A DNA stretch of 64,000 nucleotides. Origin: Roseimaritima sediminicola (lineage in GTDB: Bacteria; Planctomycetota; Planctomycetia; Pirellulales; Pirellulaceae). A model generated the notes under the pieces. It saw nothing but the letters and a program-made list of their open reading frames with translations, was not told where the DNA came from and searched no databases. The stretch spans positions 1-64,000 of the forward strand of contig NZ_WIAD01000027.1 in the NCBI RefSeq assembly GCF_009618275.1, given 5' to 3'. Shown one piece after another: positions 3,909 through 56,860 of this stretch. Position numbers and translations under genes: made by a program. The stretch's first letter is position 1. Each line of letters opens with the position of its first letter.

Positions 3909-6350
3909 ATGCGATTGACCCTGCGAACCCTGTTGGCGCTGCGAAACAAGACGCTCAGCGCCCAAGACGAAGCGGTGCTGAGCGAGAAAGTCCGCGAGAG
4001 CAGCTACGCCCAGCAATTACTTGAATCGATTGCCGAAGTCGTCCGCAACGCTCGGCTGTCGGCTCTGCCCCCGTCGGCGACCGGTCCGACCGACGATCCG
4101 AACGTGATGGCCGAGTATTTGGACAGCACGCTGCCGCCGGAACAGGCTGCCGAGGTCGATCGGACGTGCCTCGAGTCGCCGCTGCATCTGGGCGAAGCGG
4201 CCGGTGCCCACGAGGTCCTGACCTTGGTGCTGGGCAAGCCGGCCGAGGTGCCGAGCGAGCTGCGCGATCGCGTCTACGAGATCCGTAACCACATCGCGGA
4301 AACGCAGGAGGCGGCGGGCGGAACGGCCGCCCTGCACGGGGCCGTCCCGCCCGGGGCGGACGGTGCAGCCGGCGCCCGGGAGCCGACCCTGGAACCGACG
4401 AAGGTCAAACCCGTCAGCCTGAATGATTCGGGGGCCTTTCAGGCGGCCACCCGTCTGCGGCCCCGCGAGTCCACGCGGCTGGAAACCGGCGACGAGATGT
4501 CCCCGTCGGCCGATGTGCTCCTGGCTCGCCGAGGACAATTAAATGCGGCCGAAGCCAGCGAGATCTTTGGCGACCGCTTGCGTACCTCGCGGATCGTGCC
4601 GTGGTTGGTCAGCTTGGCATTGTTGGCGGTGTTCCTGTTCGTGTTGAAACAAGCTTTCGGACCGCTGCTGGGAGACCGCGGCACCGTCGCCACCTTGACG
4701 GAGGATCCGGACCCGCAACCCCGCATCGAAGAACCCGCCAGCACCGACGAACCGGTCGAATCCGACGAACCGGTCGACGCGGTACCGAGAACCGCCGGCG
4801 ATGCGACGAATCCCACGCCGCCTGAGTTGCCTCCGCCGACTGCGGCCCAGACAAACGACTCGCCGACCTCATCCAATCCTGGCCCATCCAATCCTGGCCC
4901 GTCCAATCCGGCACCAGCCAGCCCCAACCCGTCCAGCCCAGACGCCGCGAATCCGAACCCGACGAGGAACCCGAGCGACACCGCGGCCGCCGATGCGATG
5001 GAGACGCCCAGCCCAGGCGACGCCTCACCGTCGGTCGAGAGCAACCCTCAGGACGACCTGCCGGTGGTGGAGGAAGTTACCGATGGTTCGAGCGGCGGTG
5101 ATCGCGCCAACGACGTCGACGGTTCGATGACTGCCGAGGAACCCGATGCGCCGGTCGCGGACGCCGGCGTCACGCCGGCCTCCGACTCCGCTTCTCCGGT
5201 CGTCACCACGGCCGCTTCGAATGCTCTGTTGATCGCGCTGCCGAGGGGCGCCGAGCAGTGGCAGCGGCTGGGCAACGAGACCGCGGTGGCGGTGGGCACG
5301 ACCCTGATCACGCCGCCCGGGTTCCGGAACCAGGTCGTCGCCGGCGATCGCTATGAGTTGACTGCGATCGGACCGACCATGCTGCAGATCGGTTTGGCCG
5401 GTGATCAAGGGGAACTGAATGTGCAGGGCGGCCGCGTGGTGATCGTTGCTCGGCAGCCCGACTTAACTCTGTCGATTCGGTTTGGCTCGCGATTGGCCGA
5501 AGTCCATATTCCCGAAGCCGGCGGGACATTGGCCGTGCACGTCGATGCGTTCCGGTCTCCGGGAACCGATCCCACCATCGCCGAGAACCGCGTGCTGGTG
5601 ACCCGGGCGCTGGCCGTCGAGGGACCGCTGGACTGGCGGCTCGGCGAGGCGGCCGCCGAGTCGCTGGAGACCGATCAACAGTGGACCCTGATCGGCGATG
5701 GCGACGCGGACATCACGACGATGGACGAGCAACCGGACTGGATCGAGCGGGCGGCCGAGAGCGCGATCGAAACGTCGGCCCGCGAGACCCTGGTTTCGCT
5801 GTTGGCCGAAGACCAACCCATCGCGATGGTCCTGCGCGGGGCGCTGTCGTTTCGCCGCGCCGAAGTGGCCGCTCTGGCCGCACGGACGCTGTTGCAGATG
5901 GGACACGCCGACGTCTACTTCGGCACCGAAGGCGTCCTCAACGACCCCAAACAAAAATCCTATTGGTCGGAGCACGTCCTGGCGCTCAAGTCGCGAATCG
6001 ACCACAGTCCGGCGGCGGCCGAGGATGTTCTGAACGACGCGCTGGCCATGGACCCGGCCAATGCCCAGACCCTGTTCCGCTTGCTGTGGGATTATTCACC
6101 CGAACAGCTGCAGGCCGGCGATGACGCGTCCCTGGTCGCTTTGTTGGACAGTCCTCACATGGCCGTCCGTGTGTTGGCGATCGAAGCCTTGCGGCGGATC
6201 ACCGGGACGACCCTGTTCTATAAACCGGATCAGGACGTGGCCACGCGGCGCAAGAACGACATCAAGAAGTGGGAGGCGCGGCTGCGGCGCGAAGACATTC
6301 GCTGGCAGACCGTCCCAATCGCCGGCGAAACCAGTGGCATAGGCTTCTAG
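3909..6350 (+). CDS. Large single-span membrane protein with Pro/Asn-rich region, lineage-specific
   Basis: I chose ATG 3909 over an in-frame ATG at 3852 because AGGAGAA lies just upstream; this gives 813 residues. The first 110 residues (starting MRLTLRTLLALRNKTLS) resemble the cytoplasmic N-terminus of a planctomycete family with an anti-sigma-like layout. A membrane span follows near residues 228-250 (IVPWLVSLALLAVFLFVLK). Next comes a long low-complexity stretch rich in Pro, Ser, Asn, Asp and Glu, with a repeated NPGPS unit, then a folded C-terminal part (LLQMGHADVYFG, LRRITGTTLFY). No catalytic motif is recognised. The last five residues, SGIGF, and the TAG stop come from a hairpin repeat that runs into the gene. 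Confidence 0.85.
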   Translation: MRLTLRTLLALRNKTLSAQDEAVLSEKVRESSYAQQLLESIAEVVRNARLSALPPSATGPTDDPNVMAEYLDSTLPPEQAAEVDRTCLESPLHLGEAAGAHEVLTLVLGKPAEVPSELRDRVYEIRNHIAETQEAAGGTAALHGAVPPGADGAAGAREPTLEPTKVKPVSLNDSGAFQAATRLRPRESTRLETGDEMSPSADVLLARRGQLNAAEASEIFGDRLRTSRIVPWLVSLALLAVFLFVLKQAFGPLLGDRGTVATLTEDPDPQPRIEEPASTDEPVESDEPVDAVPRTAGDATNPTPPELPPPTAAQTNDSPTSSNPGPSNPGPSNPAPASPNPSSPDAANPNPTRNPSDTAAADAMETPSPGDASPSVESNPQDDLPVVEEVTDGSSGGDRANDVDGSMTAEEPDAPVADAGVTPASDSASPVVTTAASNALLIALPRGAEQWQRLGNETAVAVGTTLITPPGFRNQVVAGDRYELTAIGPTMLQIGLAGDQGELNVQGGRVVIVARQPDLTLSIRFGSRLAEVHIPEAGGTLAVHVDAFRSPGTDPTIAENRVLVTRALAVEGPLDWRLGEAAAESLETDQQWTLIGDGDADITTMDEQPDWIERAAESAIETSARETLVSLLAEDQPIAMVLRGALSFRRAEVAALAARTLLQMGHADVYFGTEGVLNDPKQKSYWSEHVLALKSRIDHSPAAAEDVLNDALAMDPANAQTLFRLLWDYSPEQLQAGDDASLVALLDSPHMAVRVLAIEALRRITGTTLFYKPDQDVATRRKNDIKKWEARLRREDIRWQTVPIAGETSGIGF

Positions 6351-6413
6351 CCTGTGAGCAGTGGCATAGGCTTCCAGCCTGTGAAAGCAGTGGCATAGGC
6401 TTCCAGCCTGTGA
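6332..6413. repeat. Three-unit hairpin repeat (AGGCT-TCY-AGCCT)
   Basis: Three units with AGTGGCATAGGCTTCCAGCC as core, the reverse orientation of the array at 267-473. Both arrays read TCC or TCT in the loop in the sense direction of the gene they follow. The first unit has loop TCT instead of TCC, which makes the in-frame TAG of the upstream gene. Confidence 0.9.
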
Positions 6414-6419
6414 AAGCAG

Positions 6420-6491
6420 TAGCCGTAGCCGTAGCCGCCAGACTTTCGGGCTTTTCTCCTTTTCGATCCAATCTCTGGCGAGATCGGCTAC
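6420..6491. repeat. Dispersed inverted-repeat element (GTAGCTGA...TCGCCAGA family)
   Basis: An element of about 70 bp with outer arms resembling GTAGC...CGCCAGA and TCTGGCGAGATCGGCTAC. Related copies lie at 25874-25941, 27660-27765 and 53316-53392. Its right arm overlaps the nadE stop: the TAG read on the minus strand at 6490-6488 is part of the terminal GTAGC. The arms could form a long hairpin at the mRNA 3' end. Confidence 0.75.
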
Positions 6492-8569
6492 CCCTTCCAC
6501 GGGCCGCGGTCGGCGTCGCTGGGCATCCGCCAATCGCCGCGCGGTGACAGGCTGACCGAGCCGACTTTGGGGCCGTCGGGAACGCAGCTGCGTTTGAACT
6601 GGTTGGCAAAGAACCGCCGGTAAAACGTCTCCAGCGTCTTTTCGATCTGCTCCGCCGGATAGGCCTGTGAGAACTGGGCATGGCGAGCCAGGAAGAGGAT
6701 CTTCTCGGGCGTGAAGCCGTTGCGGACGACGTGGTAGAGGAAGAAGTCGTGCAGCTCGTACGGCCCGAGCGTGTCTTCGGTTTCCTGGCGGATTGTACCG
6801 TCCTCGGCCGGTGGCAGCAGCTCCGGCGAGATCGGCGTGTCGGCAATCGCATGGAGCAGTTCGCCATCGCGACCCTGGAAATAATGGTCCGCGGCGTACC
6901 GCACCAGGAACCGCACCAGCGTCTTCGGGATCGAGGTATTGACGTTGTACATCGACATGTGGTCGCCGTTGTACGTGCTCCACCCGAGCGCCTGTTCGGA
7001 CAGGTCGCCCGTGCCCAGGACGAATCCGCGGCTCATCAACAAGAACGTCCGCAGCCGGGCTTGAACGTTTTCAAACACCAGGTCGCCCTCTCCCGCATCG
7101 GTTTGCACCAGTCGCTGTTGCAGGGTCGCAGCGTCCATTCCCTCGGTCAAGGCGATGCCCAGCGGGGCGTGATCGAGCGACCGAAAGGCTTGCAGCGACA
7201 ACTCGCGGATGTCGATGCGTTCGCTGGAAATGCCCAGTACCCGCATCAGTTCCGTGGCGTTGCTTTCGGTGCTCGCGGTCGTTCCGAAGCCGGGCATCGT
7301 GACGCCGTGGATGCGACTGCGAGGCCAGTCGTACTGGTCGCAGGCTTTGACCGCCACCAACAACGCCAAGGTGCTGTCCAGGCCGCCCGAGACGCCGATC
7401 ACCAAAGGCGAGGAAGCCGACAAGCGGCTGACGCGTTTGGCCAACGCCGCCGTTTGAATCTCAAAAATCTCCGCGCAGCGCGCCGCCAAGCCGCTGGGGT
7501 CCGAGGGCACGAAGGGCTGGGCAATCACACGCCGTAGCGGCGGGCGATCCGGCGAGCGATGGTCGGAAACGCGGGAGCCGCTCGAAGGGGTCGCCGTGTC
7601 AGACTCGCTGGAGGAAGCAGACGATTGCCGGCCGGTGTCCGGAGCTTTGACATCGATGAAGCGGAATGGATGCGGCAACAACCGTCGTCCATCATCGAAC
7701 GATCCGATCACCTGACGATCGTGCTGCAGCCGTTGCAGGTCGATGTCGGCCATCGCATGGGTCGCGCCTTGCCAGGGCAATTCGCCGTCGCCGACCCGCC
7801 GTGACTGGTCCAGCAACTGGCCGTTTTCGGCGATCATGCAGTGGCCCCCGAAGACCAGGTCCGTGGTCGATTCGGTGGGTCCGCTGCTGGCGTACACGTA
7901 ACCCGCGATGCAGCGACCCGACTGGCTGACCACCAGATCGCGGCGCCACTGGGCTTTGCCAACCACTTCGTTGCTGGCTGAAAGATTCAGCAGCACGTTC
8001 GCTCCGGCCACCGCTTGAAAACTGCTCGGCGGCAGCGGCGTCCACAGGTCTTCGCAAATCTCCATGCCGATGACCGCTTCGCCGTACCGCAGCAGCAGGT
8101 CCGTGCCGTAGGGGACTTGTTGGCCGGCGATGGTTACCACCGGGCCATCACCGGCGTCCCCGGCACGAAACCAACGCCCTTCGTAGAACTCTTTGTAGGT
8201 GGGCAAGAATTGTTTCGGTACCGCGGCGATCAGGCGGCCGCGGTGCATTGCAATCGCCGCATTCATCAACGAGGTTTCCGCTCGCAGTGGCATTCCCACG
8301 ACCACCAATTGGTCACTGCTGGCGGTTTGTTCGGCCAGCCGCAACAGTTGTTCCTCGGCGGCGTCCAGCAGCGGCAACTGGGCGAATAAGTCGGCGCAGG
8401 TGTAGCCGGTCAGGCCCAGTTCCGGCAGCAGGATCAAGTCGGCTTCGCCCAGCGGCGCGATCGCTTCGAGGATGGAATCGACGTTCTGCCGCGGATCGCC
8501 CACGGCCACCTCCGGTGAGACGGCGGCGACGCGAAACAGGCCATGCGGAGGAAATGTCTGGTCGTTCAA
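6488..8569 (-). CDS. nadE: NAD+ synthase, glutamine-hydrolysing
   Basis: The 693-residue, two-domain enzyme makes NAD+ from deamido-NAD+, ATP and glutamine, the last step of NAD synthesis. The N-terminal nitrilase-like glutaminase shows the full triad: Glu50 in LLPELGLTGY, Lys119 in VPKQFLP and Cys172 in GMEICEDLW. The C-terminal synthetase has the ATP-pyrophosphatase loop SGGLDSTLAL and the motif GTGDLSEQALGWSTYNGDHM. Length and layout match the long NadE of actinobacteria. A Ser-rich linker of about 50 residues separates the domains. The start is TTG at 8569 with no strong ribosome site; no better in-frame start exists upstream. It is divergent from the SRAP gene. Confidence 0.95.
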   Translation of the reverse strand: MNDQTFPPHGLFRVAAVSPEVAVGDPRQNVDSILEAIAPLGEADLILLPELGLTGYTCADLFAQLPLLDAAEEQLLRLAEQTASSDQLVVVGMPLRAETSLMNAAIAMHRGRLIAAVPKQFLPTYKEFYEGRWFRAGDAGDGPVVTIAGQQVPYGTDLLLRYGEAVIGMEICEDLWTPLPPSSFQAVAGANVLLNLSASNEVVGKAQWRRDLVVSQSGRCIAGYVYASSGPTESTTDLVFGGHCMIAENGQLLDQSRRVGDGELPWQGATHAMADIDLQRLQHDRQVIGSFDDGRRLLPHPFRFIDVKAPDTGRQSSASSSESDTATPSSGSRVSDHRSPDRPPLRRVIAQPFVPSDPSGLAARCAEIFEIQTAALAKRVSRLSASSPLVIGVSGGLDSTLALLVAVKACDQYDWPRSRIHGVTMPGFGTTASTESNATELMRVLGISSERIDIRELSLQAFRSLDHAPLGIALTEGMDAATLQQRLVQTDAGEGDLVFENVQARLRTFLLMSRGFVLGTGDLSEQALGWSTYNGDHMSMYNVNTSIPKTLVRFLVRYAADHYFQGRDGELLHAIADTPISPELLPPAEDGTIRQETEDTLGPYELHDFFLYHVVRNGFTPEKILFLARHAQFSQAYPAEQIEKTLETFYRRFFANQFKRSCVPDGPKVGSVSLSPRGDWRMPSDADRGPWKG

Positions 8570-21944: not shown

Positions 21945-23013
21945 CGGGTGTTTGGGCGTTGCCGAGGGGCGTCGTGGGGTGCGCTTTTCGGGGCACGCTC
22001 CGCGGTTGGGTATCGGGTATTCGCGTCGCGGTTGGTCACCGGGAATTCGCGTCGCGGTTGGGCACCGGGAATTCGCGTCGCGGTTGGACACCGGGAATTC
22101 GCGTCGCGGTTGGTTGCCGGAAATTCGCGGAGCGAGGACATGTGGTAGCCAGGGGCACGAGCCCCTGGGGCTCGCGCCCCACCGCACGCTAAACCCCAGC
22201 GGGGTGACATGCGGTTTTCATGTCGCTCCTCCGGAGCTTGGTGGGTTGGGGGGCGCCGTTTCCTGGGGCTTGCGCCCCAGGCTACCGCCTGCCGCCGCTC
22301 CGCGGCTGGTTCGTTGGCGGGGCGACACGCATTGTCGAGGGGCGTCGTGGGTTGCGCTTTCGACGCACGCTCCGCGGTGGGTTATCGGTAAATGGCTCCG
22401 CGCCGCGGTTGGTTGATTGGCGGGGCGACACGCGTTGTCGAGGGATGTCGTGGGTTGCGCTTTCGACGCACGCTCCGCGGGTGGGTTATTGGGTATTCGC
22501 TCCGCGTCGCGGTTGGTCTCCGGAAATTCGCGGAGCGAGGACATGTGGTAGCCAGGGGCGCGAGCCCCTGGGGCTCGCGCCCCATCACACGCTAAACCCC
22601 GGCGGGGTGACATGCGGTTTTCAAGTCGCTCCTCCGGAGCTTGGTGGGTTGGGGGCGCCGTTTCCTGAAGCTCGCGCCCCAGGCTACCACCTGCCGCCGC
22701 TCCGCGGCTGGTTGGTTGGCGGGGCGGCACGCGTTGTCGAGGAGCGTCGGGGGTTGCGCTTTCGACGCACGCGCTGCGGTGGGTTATCGGTAAATGGCTC
22801 CGCGCCGCGGTTGGTTGATTGGCGGGGCGACACGCGTTGTCGAGGGATGTCGTGGATTGCGCTTTCGACGCACGCTCCGCGGTGGGTTATCGGGTATTCG
22901 GGTCGCGGTTGGTCTCCGGAAATTCGCGGAGCGAGGACATGTGGTAGCCAGGGGCGCGAGCCCCTGGGGCTCGTGCCCCACCGCACGTCAAACCCCGGCG
23001 GGGTGGCAGGCGG
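21945..23013. repeat. Composite hairpin repeat array, about 400-bp period (left part)
   Basis: A run of about 26 bp units (ATTCGCGTCGCGGTTGG type) at 22019-22125 leads into a unit of about 400 bp that recurs: the marker GAGGACATGTGGTAGCC is found near 22134, 22538 and 22933. Each unit strings together small hairpins: AGGGGC-GCGA-GCCCCT, ACCCC-GGC-GGGGT, GCTCC-TCC-GGAGC, CCTGGGGC-TTGC-GCCCCAGG and GCCGC-TCC-GCGGC. Long open frames through it on both strands are by-products of the GC-rich repeat. There is no gene here. Confidence 0.9.
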
Positions 23014-23481
23014 CTATCCGGCAAGCTCTTGATCAAACACATATCGCTCGTTGAAATGGACTCCGTGCAACCGAAGCAACTGAAGGTACTCCGATTCAAA
23101 GCTTTGTTTTCGGTGGTGCTCGCGCTGATTCATGATGTACTTGATAACTGCATCCTTGCCTGACTCGCTGACCGAAAATACGCCATAGCCTTTCTGCCAA
23201 TGGAACTTTGCCTTGATCTTTCGGTGGTCGTTGATCCATTTCGACGAGTTGGTCTTGAGGAAACGGATGGTGTCGGCGACCGCGAAGGAAGGGTGAGCAC
23301 GAAGCAGTAGATGCACGTGGTTTTCAATGCCACCTGCCTTCAAAACCGAAGCCTTGTGGTCCCTGGCTGCTCCCCCGATGTAGGCGAATAATTCGTCTCG
23401 CCAGTCATCGCGGAGAACGTTGGACCGATTCTTCGTGCTGAATACCGCGTGTAGCAAAAGGTTGGAGTGGGTTGATGGCAT
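23014..23481 (-). CDS. tnpA: IS200/IS605-family single-strand transposase TnpA (Y1 HUH)
   Basis: ATG 23481 gives 155 residues, the usual full length for TnpA; the open frame further upstream is not needed. The HUH metal site is His55-Val-His57 in GGIENHVHLLLR, and the nucleophile should be Tyr115 in VIKYIMNQREHH, the IS200-type context rather than the YIH-x-NP of REP-associated relatives. The enzyme nicks and joins single-stranded DNA by recognising subterminal hairpins. No tnpB lies nearby. The coding text is lower in GC than its surroundings and appears intact. It lies inside an array of palindromic repeats with a second array elsewhere, so the repeats could be its substrates or passengers. 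Confidence 0.9.
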   Translation of the reverse strand: MPSTHSNLLLHAVFSTKNRSNVLRDDWRDELFAYIGGAARDHKASVLKAGGIENHVHLLLRAHPSFAVADTIRFLKTNSSKWINDHRKIKAKFHWQKGYGVFSVSESGKDAVIKYIMNQREHHRKQSFESEYLQLLRLHGVHFNERYVFDQELAG

Positions 23482-23607
23482 GGTTTCACTACCCCTGTAG
23501 AACCAATCTGAGGTCGACGTTGTCGCCTGCCCCGCGCAAGCACATCGCCCTTGTTTCCGCGCAGCCATTTTATCGTGGGTCGAGGCTTCCGTGTGGGGGG
23601 GGGGCTT
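23014..23607 (-). mobile_element. IS200/IS605-type insertion inside the composite repeat
   Basis: The neighbouring repeat copies read without a break as GACATGCGGTTTTCATGTCGC (about 22207) where this copy is interrupted. The left partner ends at GGCAGGCGG (23013) and the right partner resumes at TTTTCATGTCGC (about 23607). About 594 bp of extra DNA, containing one transposase gene, therefore lies at GCGG/TTTT. There are no terminal inverted repeats or target duplication, as expected for this family. The boundary coincides with the transposase stop codon, leaving no room for a separate right end. Confidence 0.75.
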
Positions 23608-24105
23608 TTTTCATGTCGCTCCTCCGGAGCTTGGTGGGTTGGGGGCGGCGTTCCTGGGGCTCGCGCCCCAGGCTACCACCTGCCGCCGCTCCGCGGCTGG
23701 TTGGTTGGCGGGGCGACACGCGTTGTCGAGGAGCGTCGGGGGTTGCGCTTTCGACGCACCCGCCGCGGTGGGTTCGTTGGCGGGACGACACGCGTTGTCG
23801 ACGGGCATCGTGGGTTGCGCTTTCGACGCACGCTCCACGGTGGGTTATCGGTAAATGGCTCCGTGTCGCGGTTGGTCACCGGAAATTCGCTCCACGGTTG
23901 GTCTCCGGCAATTCGCGGAGCGAGGACATGTGGTAGCCAGGGGCGCGAGCCCCTGGGCATGGCCCCACCAAACGCTAAACCCCGGAGGGGTGGCATACGG
24001 TCTTCATGTCGCTCCTCCCGAGCTAGAGCGTGGATTGGGCGCGAGCCCCTGGGGCTCGCGCCCCATCACACGCTAAACCCCGGCGGGGTGACATGCGGCT
24101 GGTGG
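23608..24105. repeat. Composite hairpin repeat array (right part)
   Basis: This continues the 400-bp unit after the insertion, with marker GAGGACATGTGGTAGCC near 23924 and a partial copy up to about 24105, 100 bp before pyrC. One hairpin here reads ACCCC-GGA-GGGGT where left-hand copies have GGC or AGC in the loop. The remaining 24106-24208 should hold the pyrC promoter, but no clear boxes are visible. Confidence 0.85.
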
Positions 24106-56587: not shown

Positions 56588-56607
56588 ACCGGCTCGCCAA
56601 GTGCCGC

Positions 56608-56850
56608 CTTTCGCTCCGCGAAGCAGTGTCGCCTTTCGCTCCGCGAAAGCAGTGTCGCCTTTCGCTCCGCGAAAGTAGTGCCGCCTTTCGCTCTGCGAAA
56701 GTAGTGTCGCCTTTCGCTCTGCGAAAGTAGTGTCGCCTTTCGCTCTGCGAAAGTAGTGTCGCCTTTCGCTCCGCGAAAGTAGTGGGTAGTAATCCTGAGC
56801 AACTTTCGCGGAGCGAAAGGCGACTCTGGGCAACTTTCGCGGAGCGAAAG
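56608..56850. repeat. CTTTCGC-TCY-GCGAAAG hairpin array with two inverted units
   Basis: Seven direct units of about 26 bp (cores at about 56608, 56632, 56659, 56684, 56711, 56738 and 56763). Each is CTTTCGC-loop-GCGAAAG with loop TCC or, in three units, TCT. A spacer (56780-56800) is followed by two inverted units (about 56803 and 56834, loop GGA). The direct units follow a plus-strand gene and the inverted units a minus-strand gene, so all read TCC or TCT in the sense direction. Confidence 0.92.
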
Positions 56851-56860
56851 GCGACTCTGC

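Follow-up and report, generated by a model that had tools for sequence, protein, structure and literature searches.

REP-type repeats directly behind genes of Roseimaritima sediminicola, with a hairpin-loop TAG as the stop codon of the gene at 3909-6350

In the window analysed here, a stretch of 64,000 nucleotides of Roseimaritima sediminicola (contig NZ_WIAD01000027.1, positions 1 to 64,000), a gene of the plus strand (3909-6350) ends within the first unit of a short hairpin repeat, the TAG of the hairpin loop being its stop codon. The repeat very probably represents a REP-type family that multiplied recently and whose copies tend to lie in sense orientation directly behind genes; at this gene, the element would have extended the protein by SGIGF up to the TAG in the loop.

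Results

A stop codon within a repeat unit

The gene at 3909-6350 was analysed using the ORF listing as well as ortholog and Pfam searches; gene ends are those of a purpose-built gene caller based on codon usage. Positions 6333-6350 read, in frame, AGT GGC ATA GGC TTC TAG, that is, SGIGF followed by the stop. The five repeat-encoded codons (6333-6347, +) are without counterpart in same-genus orthologs, and the TAG at 6348-6350 (+) is located in the loop of REP-like unit 1 (6334-6356, +), which is composed of a GTGG head and a hairpin (6338-6356, CATAGGCTTCTAGCCTGTG) with the loop variant TTCTAG. Two more units follow on the same strand, both with a TTCCAG loop: unit 2 (6361-6383, +; hairpin at 6365-6383, starting 14 nt past the gene's stop at 6350) and unit 3 (6390-6412, +; hairpin at 6394-6412). 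The sequence-only reading of this DNA had claimed that the gene enters the first unit, that SGIGF is repeat-encoded and that the first loop differs from the next two, all of which is evident from the codons at 6333-6350 and the sequence of the units. Its expectation that the gene would read on with the usual loop was also confirmed. Beyond the loop TAG, the frame continues as PVSSGIGFQPVKAVA to the TAG at 6396-6398 (+), which is part of CATAG in unit 3, where the 29-nt spacing shifts the frame; with CAG in place of TAG at 6348, the protein would thus be 16 residues longer. The convergent neighbour (6488-8569, -) encodes carbon-nitrogen hydrolase and NAD synthase domains.

The Pfam search assigned the product of 3909-6350 to no family, the best match being PF13646 HEAT_2 with an E-value of 0.8. 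An initial tblastn contig scan with the protein returned no relative; relatives of the gene were found in 40 of the 40 genomes searched. The product ends in IAGETSGIGF*, and the three same-genus orthologs end in IAGATE*, IAGQ* and LPGIEVPQEED*, none of them with SGIGF. This comparison, which had been proposed as a check of the earlier reading, supports an insertion and rules out an ancestral SGIGF tail. Since no same-genus ortholog has the repeat tail, a gene-extending insertion is the simplest reading. Ortholog tails differ naturally, with 1 to 8 residues past the conserved G, so that the old stop and the exact insertion point are not readable from them.

The TTCTAG loop was found in 28 exact copies in the genome, compared with 718 units when up to 2 mismatches are allowed. 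Among 20 TTCTAG copies fetched, two serve as in-frame stops of long coding frames, namely in the window gene and in L357, whose tail reads VSGRSGIGF*. Another gene (C97 366952-367965) runs through a TTCCAG unit and ends about 40 residues further on. With 28 copies, TTCTAG is a standing sub-type, which implies that the loop change did not come about for the sake of the 3909-6350 gene, and a gene-specific loop mutation was rejected on these grounds. Thus, the claim that a loop change supplies the stop codon stood in part: the TAG in the loop is the stop, and the portrayal of a C-to-T change arising in this gene found no support. For the majority of the remaining cases, the stop has another source, or the array simply adjoins an ordinary stop.

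Anatomy of the repeat

The repeat consensus GTGGCATAGGCTTCCAGCCTGTG consists of a GTGG head directly 5' of an 8-bp stem with a 3-nt loop; one U-G pair makes the stem not fully Watson-Crick. Every position was at least 95% uniform in 199 distinct units sampled. In an alignment of 12 hand-picked variants, GTGG was invariant, though one is ATGG in its source row, and 97.9% of the stem cells were paired. Compensatory double changes occurred at 3 of the 8 pairs of these variants, a value reached by none of 500 shuffles, and a U-G or C-G pair is conserved in the stem. On the sense strand (GTGGCATAGG orientation) the RNA hairpin has a predicted stability of -10.8 kcal/mol, versus -5.9 kcal/mol on the other strand. 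The window holds 10 hairpin matches, compared with 0.01 expected from shuffles, and a chance resemblance to the repeat is thereby ruled out.

For classification, the description of GTRG-type REPs in PMC6006769 was used (head 0-2 nt 5' of the hairpin, stem of at least 7 bp, loop of 2-5 nt). The unit has a GTRG head, a stem of at least 7 bp and a loop within 2-5 nt; it is present in high copy number and mostly extragenic (1 of 37 runs lies within a called gene), it prefers the 3' ends of upstream ORFs and its stem varies in a compensatory manner. We conclude that the repeat is a GTRG-type REP by anatomy, copy number, location and covariation.

Other identities were considered. No terminator-like site was found at 271-473 or 6334-6412, the two arrays of the window, and the unit is followed by GTGAAA, not by a U run, for which reasons an intrinsic terminator was rejected. 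A CRISPR array was set aside because of the short spacing between units. An Rfam search of window positions 1-30000 yielded only Acido-Lenti-1, at places other than the arrays, and a literature text search with stem pieces gave no bacterial-REP title among the matches listed.

Copy number and the question of a mobilising enzyme

At up to 2 mismatches, GTGGCATAGGCTTCCAGCCTGTG occurs 718 times in the 6.25-Mb genome, a draft assembly of 185 contigs. In contrast to these 718 copies, the three same-genus genomes contain 4, 1 and 0, from which we conclude that the burst is recent. Units of GTGGCATAGGCTTCCAGCCTGTG are present in 9 of 60 relatives; among the matches listed, contigs with similar units come from planctomycetes, verrucomicrobia, deltaproteobacteria and cyanobacteria.

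The genome contains seven Y1 transposase genes (PF01797), and for none of the seven was a family unit found within about 1.5 kb. A cognate Y1 gene flanked by the same REP, as is characteristic of REP-RAYT systems, was accordingly not among them.

Further repeats and Y1 genes were noted alongside. An IS200-type Y1 transposase gene at 23017-23610 (-) of the window, matching NF033573 above cut-off, sits in long tandem repeats (22.0-23.9 kb) with GTAGCCAGGGGC-type palindromes, which are probably another family with its own enzyme. Matches to Rfam Acido-Lenti-1 (RF01687) at 22262-22307 and 23653-23698 (+) flank this gene, and Acido-Lenti-1 may be part of a repeat element and not a cellular sRNA. 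At 56600-56859, TTTCGCTCCGCGAAAG-type palindromes form short tandem arrays with a period of 26-31 and make up yet another family of hairpin repeats. The genome also has three diverged REP-type Y1 genes (L030, L031 and L032; G000 C110, C97), two of which were scanned and matched NF047646 below cut-off; all three change frame at one spot, immediately ahead of VERNALRAGLV or the equivalent sequence. We take this spot to be the usual place of the catalytic tyrosine in the REP-type Y1 family; the frame change reflects either a broken parent or a frameshift.

Sense placement next to stop codons

At fliG (474-1502, -; PF01706, PF14841, PF14842), the stop TAA at 476-474 immediately precedes CCAGTGGCATAGG. 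An array of seven units of this repeat, in sense orientation relative to fliG (271-473, -), starts at 473, the base after the stop, and its first hairpin begins 7 nt past the stop; the earlier observation that an array adjoins the fliG stop is hence correct. The final residue of the fliG C-terminus is shared with two same-genus orthologs, whose stop is TAG.

Placement was analysed in a genomic sample of 853 kb, which took in the window and contained 37 same-strand runs. Of these, 19 start between -60 and 20 nt from a sense stop, where 3.1 would be expected if runs were placed at random in intergenic DNA; the antisense side has 1 of 37. When the distance from the stop to the first hairpin was binned (-60 to -1, 0-3, 4-10, 11-20, 21-50, 51-100, 101-200, 201-500 and >500 nt), the sense runs numbered 2, 2, 9, 6, 3, 2, 0, 3 and 10, against a random intergenic expectation of 2.2, 0.2, 0.2, 0.5, 1.1, 1.8, 2.0, 4.2 and 24.7; the antisense runs numbered 0, 0, 0, 1, 2, 5, 5, 5 and 19. 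In a pooled set of 70 runs, which is biased by including stretches chosen for holding the repeat, 33 are found between -20 and 20 nt from a sense stop, and in 29 the distance exceeds 60 nt. With the unit taken as plus, the neighbouring genes were configured ++ in 29 cases, +- in 23, -- in 11 and -+ in 5, with 2 unknown. Applying a looser ORF-length yardstick to this genome (-30 to 60 nt), 45 of 68 runs were near a sense end versus 22 of 68 near an antisense end, 17 of these 22 at 21-60 nt. We conclude that sense, stop-adjacent placement is a genome-wide pattern. Together with the ortholog tails, it bears out the more general claim that the repeats have entered or reshaped gene ends.

Beyond this genome, a variant from another genus with the outer pair inverted (GTGGGATAGGCTTCCAGCCTGTC) lies near a sense gene end in 20 of 35 runs, versus 4 of 35 for antisense. 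The excess is weak in G011 (sense 9 of 24, antisense 3 of 24; ORF-length yardstick), and loci from many other phyla gave 24 of 108 versus 10 of 108. For 20 other array-bearing genes, 48 ortholog ends were queried, and none of the 48 had a unit at a distance of up to 60 nt.

A second REP family, GTAGCTCGGCTGTCCCAGCCGAG (GTAGCTCGGCTG...), was observed with 35 units in 29 runs (G000 C97, C110, C130, C152, C88, C66 and the window). It has the same sense bias, 13 of the 29 runs lying 11-50 nt behind stops, and its head supplies a TAG stop in 3 of the 29.

Junctions and the excess of TAA

Unit and stop meet in several ways. In fliG and other genes, TAA stands immediately 5' of CCAGTGG or GTGG; in two genes TAG overlaps AGTGG; and in four genes GTG GCA TAG within the unit forms a VA-stop end. 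TAA ends 151 of 574 called genes, but it is the stop in 12 of the 17 runs whose hairpin starts 4-10 nt past the stop (p 1.7e-4). TNNCCAGTGGCATAGGC has 50 matches genome-wide. The stop-like triplets directly before CCAGTGGCATAGG in 20 arrays, counted with internal array repeats collapsed by hand and seen as gene stops only within fetched stretches, were TAA in 15, TAG in 3 and TGA in 2; the 15 of 20 compare with called genes at large, 26% of which end in TAA (p 7.6e-6). Genes with zero gap have C-termini mostly as in their orthologs, whose stops are often TAG or TGA. After ortholog rows below 55% identity had been dropped, TAA was the orthologs' stop in 5 of 22 rows for REP-abutted TAA genes versus 12 of 24 for control TAA genes without REPs (Fisher p 0.07, rows not independent). 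As a sign of stop rewriting, this comparison is suggestive only.

In an array with a 34-nt period (G000 C151:13227-13481), each repeat comes with TAACCAGTGG or TGACCAGTGG; here, the stop-plus-unit segment was perhaps amplified together.

Discussion

From these data, the following course of events is proposed. A REP-type family multiplied recently in this lineage, its copies tending to lie directly behind genes, in sense orientation and at the stop codon or right beside it. In the 3909-6350 gene, the element probably landed before or across the old stop, whereupon the ribosome would enter unit 1 in one of two open frames. Reading into the unit would add SGIGF, perhaps the preceding T as well, and end at the TAG because the copy was one with the TTCTAG loop. 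An origin by single-strand hairpin transposition is inferred, and the hairpins may mildly influence the termination of translation or the 3' end of the mRNA.

That SGIGF is after all an ordinary, ancestral C-terminus with a chance likeness to the repeat, or the array an assembly error, is barely conceivable: the assembly is indeed a draft of 185 contigs, but the units are nearly identical when 0.01 matches are expected in the window, the orthologs are without SGIGF and TTCTAG recurs 28 times. A C-to-T change selected within the 3909-6350 gene to restore a stop after insertion is decidedly improbable. TTCTAG is present in the two genes observed with an SGIGF* end, and the usual loop would prolong this protein by 16 residues; however, L357 was found by a search for TTCTAG and is a biased case, most of the 28 standing copies are away from stops, and the gene at C97 366952-367965 continues through its TTCCAG unit.

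As to why copies lie at stops, it is possible, if on the unlikely side, that insertion was even and that sense copies lying no more than about 15 nt from a stop were kept for a function, the hairpin slowing termination or protecting the mRNA 3' end. The stability of the hairpin mainly on the sense strand, the conserved U-G or C-G pair and the covariation are consistent with this, as is the statement in PMC12306157 that E. coli REPs less than 16 nt from the stop reduce translation and stall ribosomes; against it, the copies multiplied since the same-genus split, a short time for so many unrelated genes, and no terminator-like site was found at the two window arrays. Active targeting, by which the insertion machinery would prefer stop codons (or a coding-strand TAA) and rebuild or abut them, is rather unlikely. 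The zero-gap junctions TAA|CCAGTGG, TAA|GTGG and TAG|TGG argue for it, as do TAA before CCAGTGGCATAGG in 15 of 20 arrays versus 26% in called genes, the mostly unchanged C-termini of these genes, whose relatives frequently use TAG or TGA as their stop, and an independent variant in G016 that likewise abuts stops; yet 29 of the 70 pooled runs are more than 60 nt from any sense stop, the TAA triplets were seen as gene stops within fetched stretches only, and the relatives' TAA counts (5 of 22 versus 12 of 24) differ at p 0.07 with rows that are not independent. What probability these two accounts leave goes to tolerance of insertions near gene ends. An extended form of targeting is unlikely: a hairpin mobile element would integrate at coding-strand stops and convert them, in many cases to TAA, giving hundreds of genes a structured 3' end with their proteins kept, occasional imprecise insertions such as that at 3909-6350 extending the protein.

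The significance of the preferred reading, a recent REP-type family with sense copies directly behind genes, is twofold. The REP burst is recent and nearly uniform, and its copies are often placed at stops with zero gap and on a fixed strand, which opens an old question to testing, namely whether insertion is aimed at gene ends or whether only the copies located there survive or are of use. For annotation, the warning is that a C-terminal tail like SGIGF or VA can stem from a repeat.

Comparison with known systems

In PMC3733652, REP termini are described as often providing stop codons and REPs as lying near 3' ends, and Planctomycetes are named as REP carriers, R. baltica having several families. 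The present repeat resembles the GTAG-class REPs of that source in its GTRG head beside a 6-9 bp stem, a 2-3 nt loop, G-T pairs, high copy number and intergenic location; it differs in that the stop is supplied by the loop, by CATAG of the stem or by a TAA before the unit, and not by a GTAG head. For E. coli, PMC12306157 (citing its ref. 17) states that REPs within 15 nt of the stop stall ribosomes. The sense hairpins just past the stop, at 14 nt (unit 2) and 7 nt (fliG), are alike in position. REP-RAYT and IS200-type systems, as PMC2817692 and PMC6006769 describe them, have GTGG or GTAG 0-2 nt 5' of the hairpin and REPs directly behind rayt stops. With these single-strand transposition systems, our family shares the tetranucleotide GTGG beside a hairpin; unlike REP-RAYT as described there, it has no Y1 gene near any of its units in this genome. 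Thus, REPs supplying stops and REPs lying near stops are already published, and what is unusual here are the long head-to-tail arrays, the zero-gap sense placement, the TAA excess and the stop supplied by the loop.
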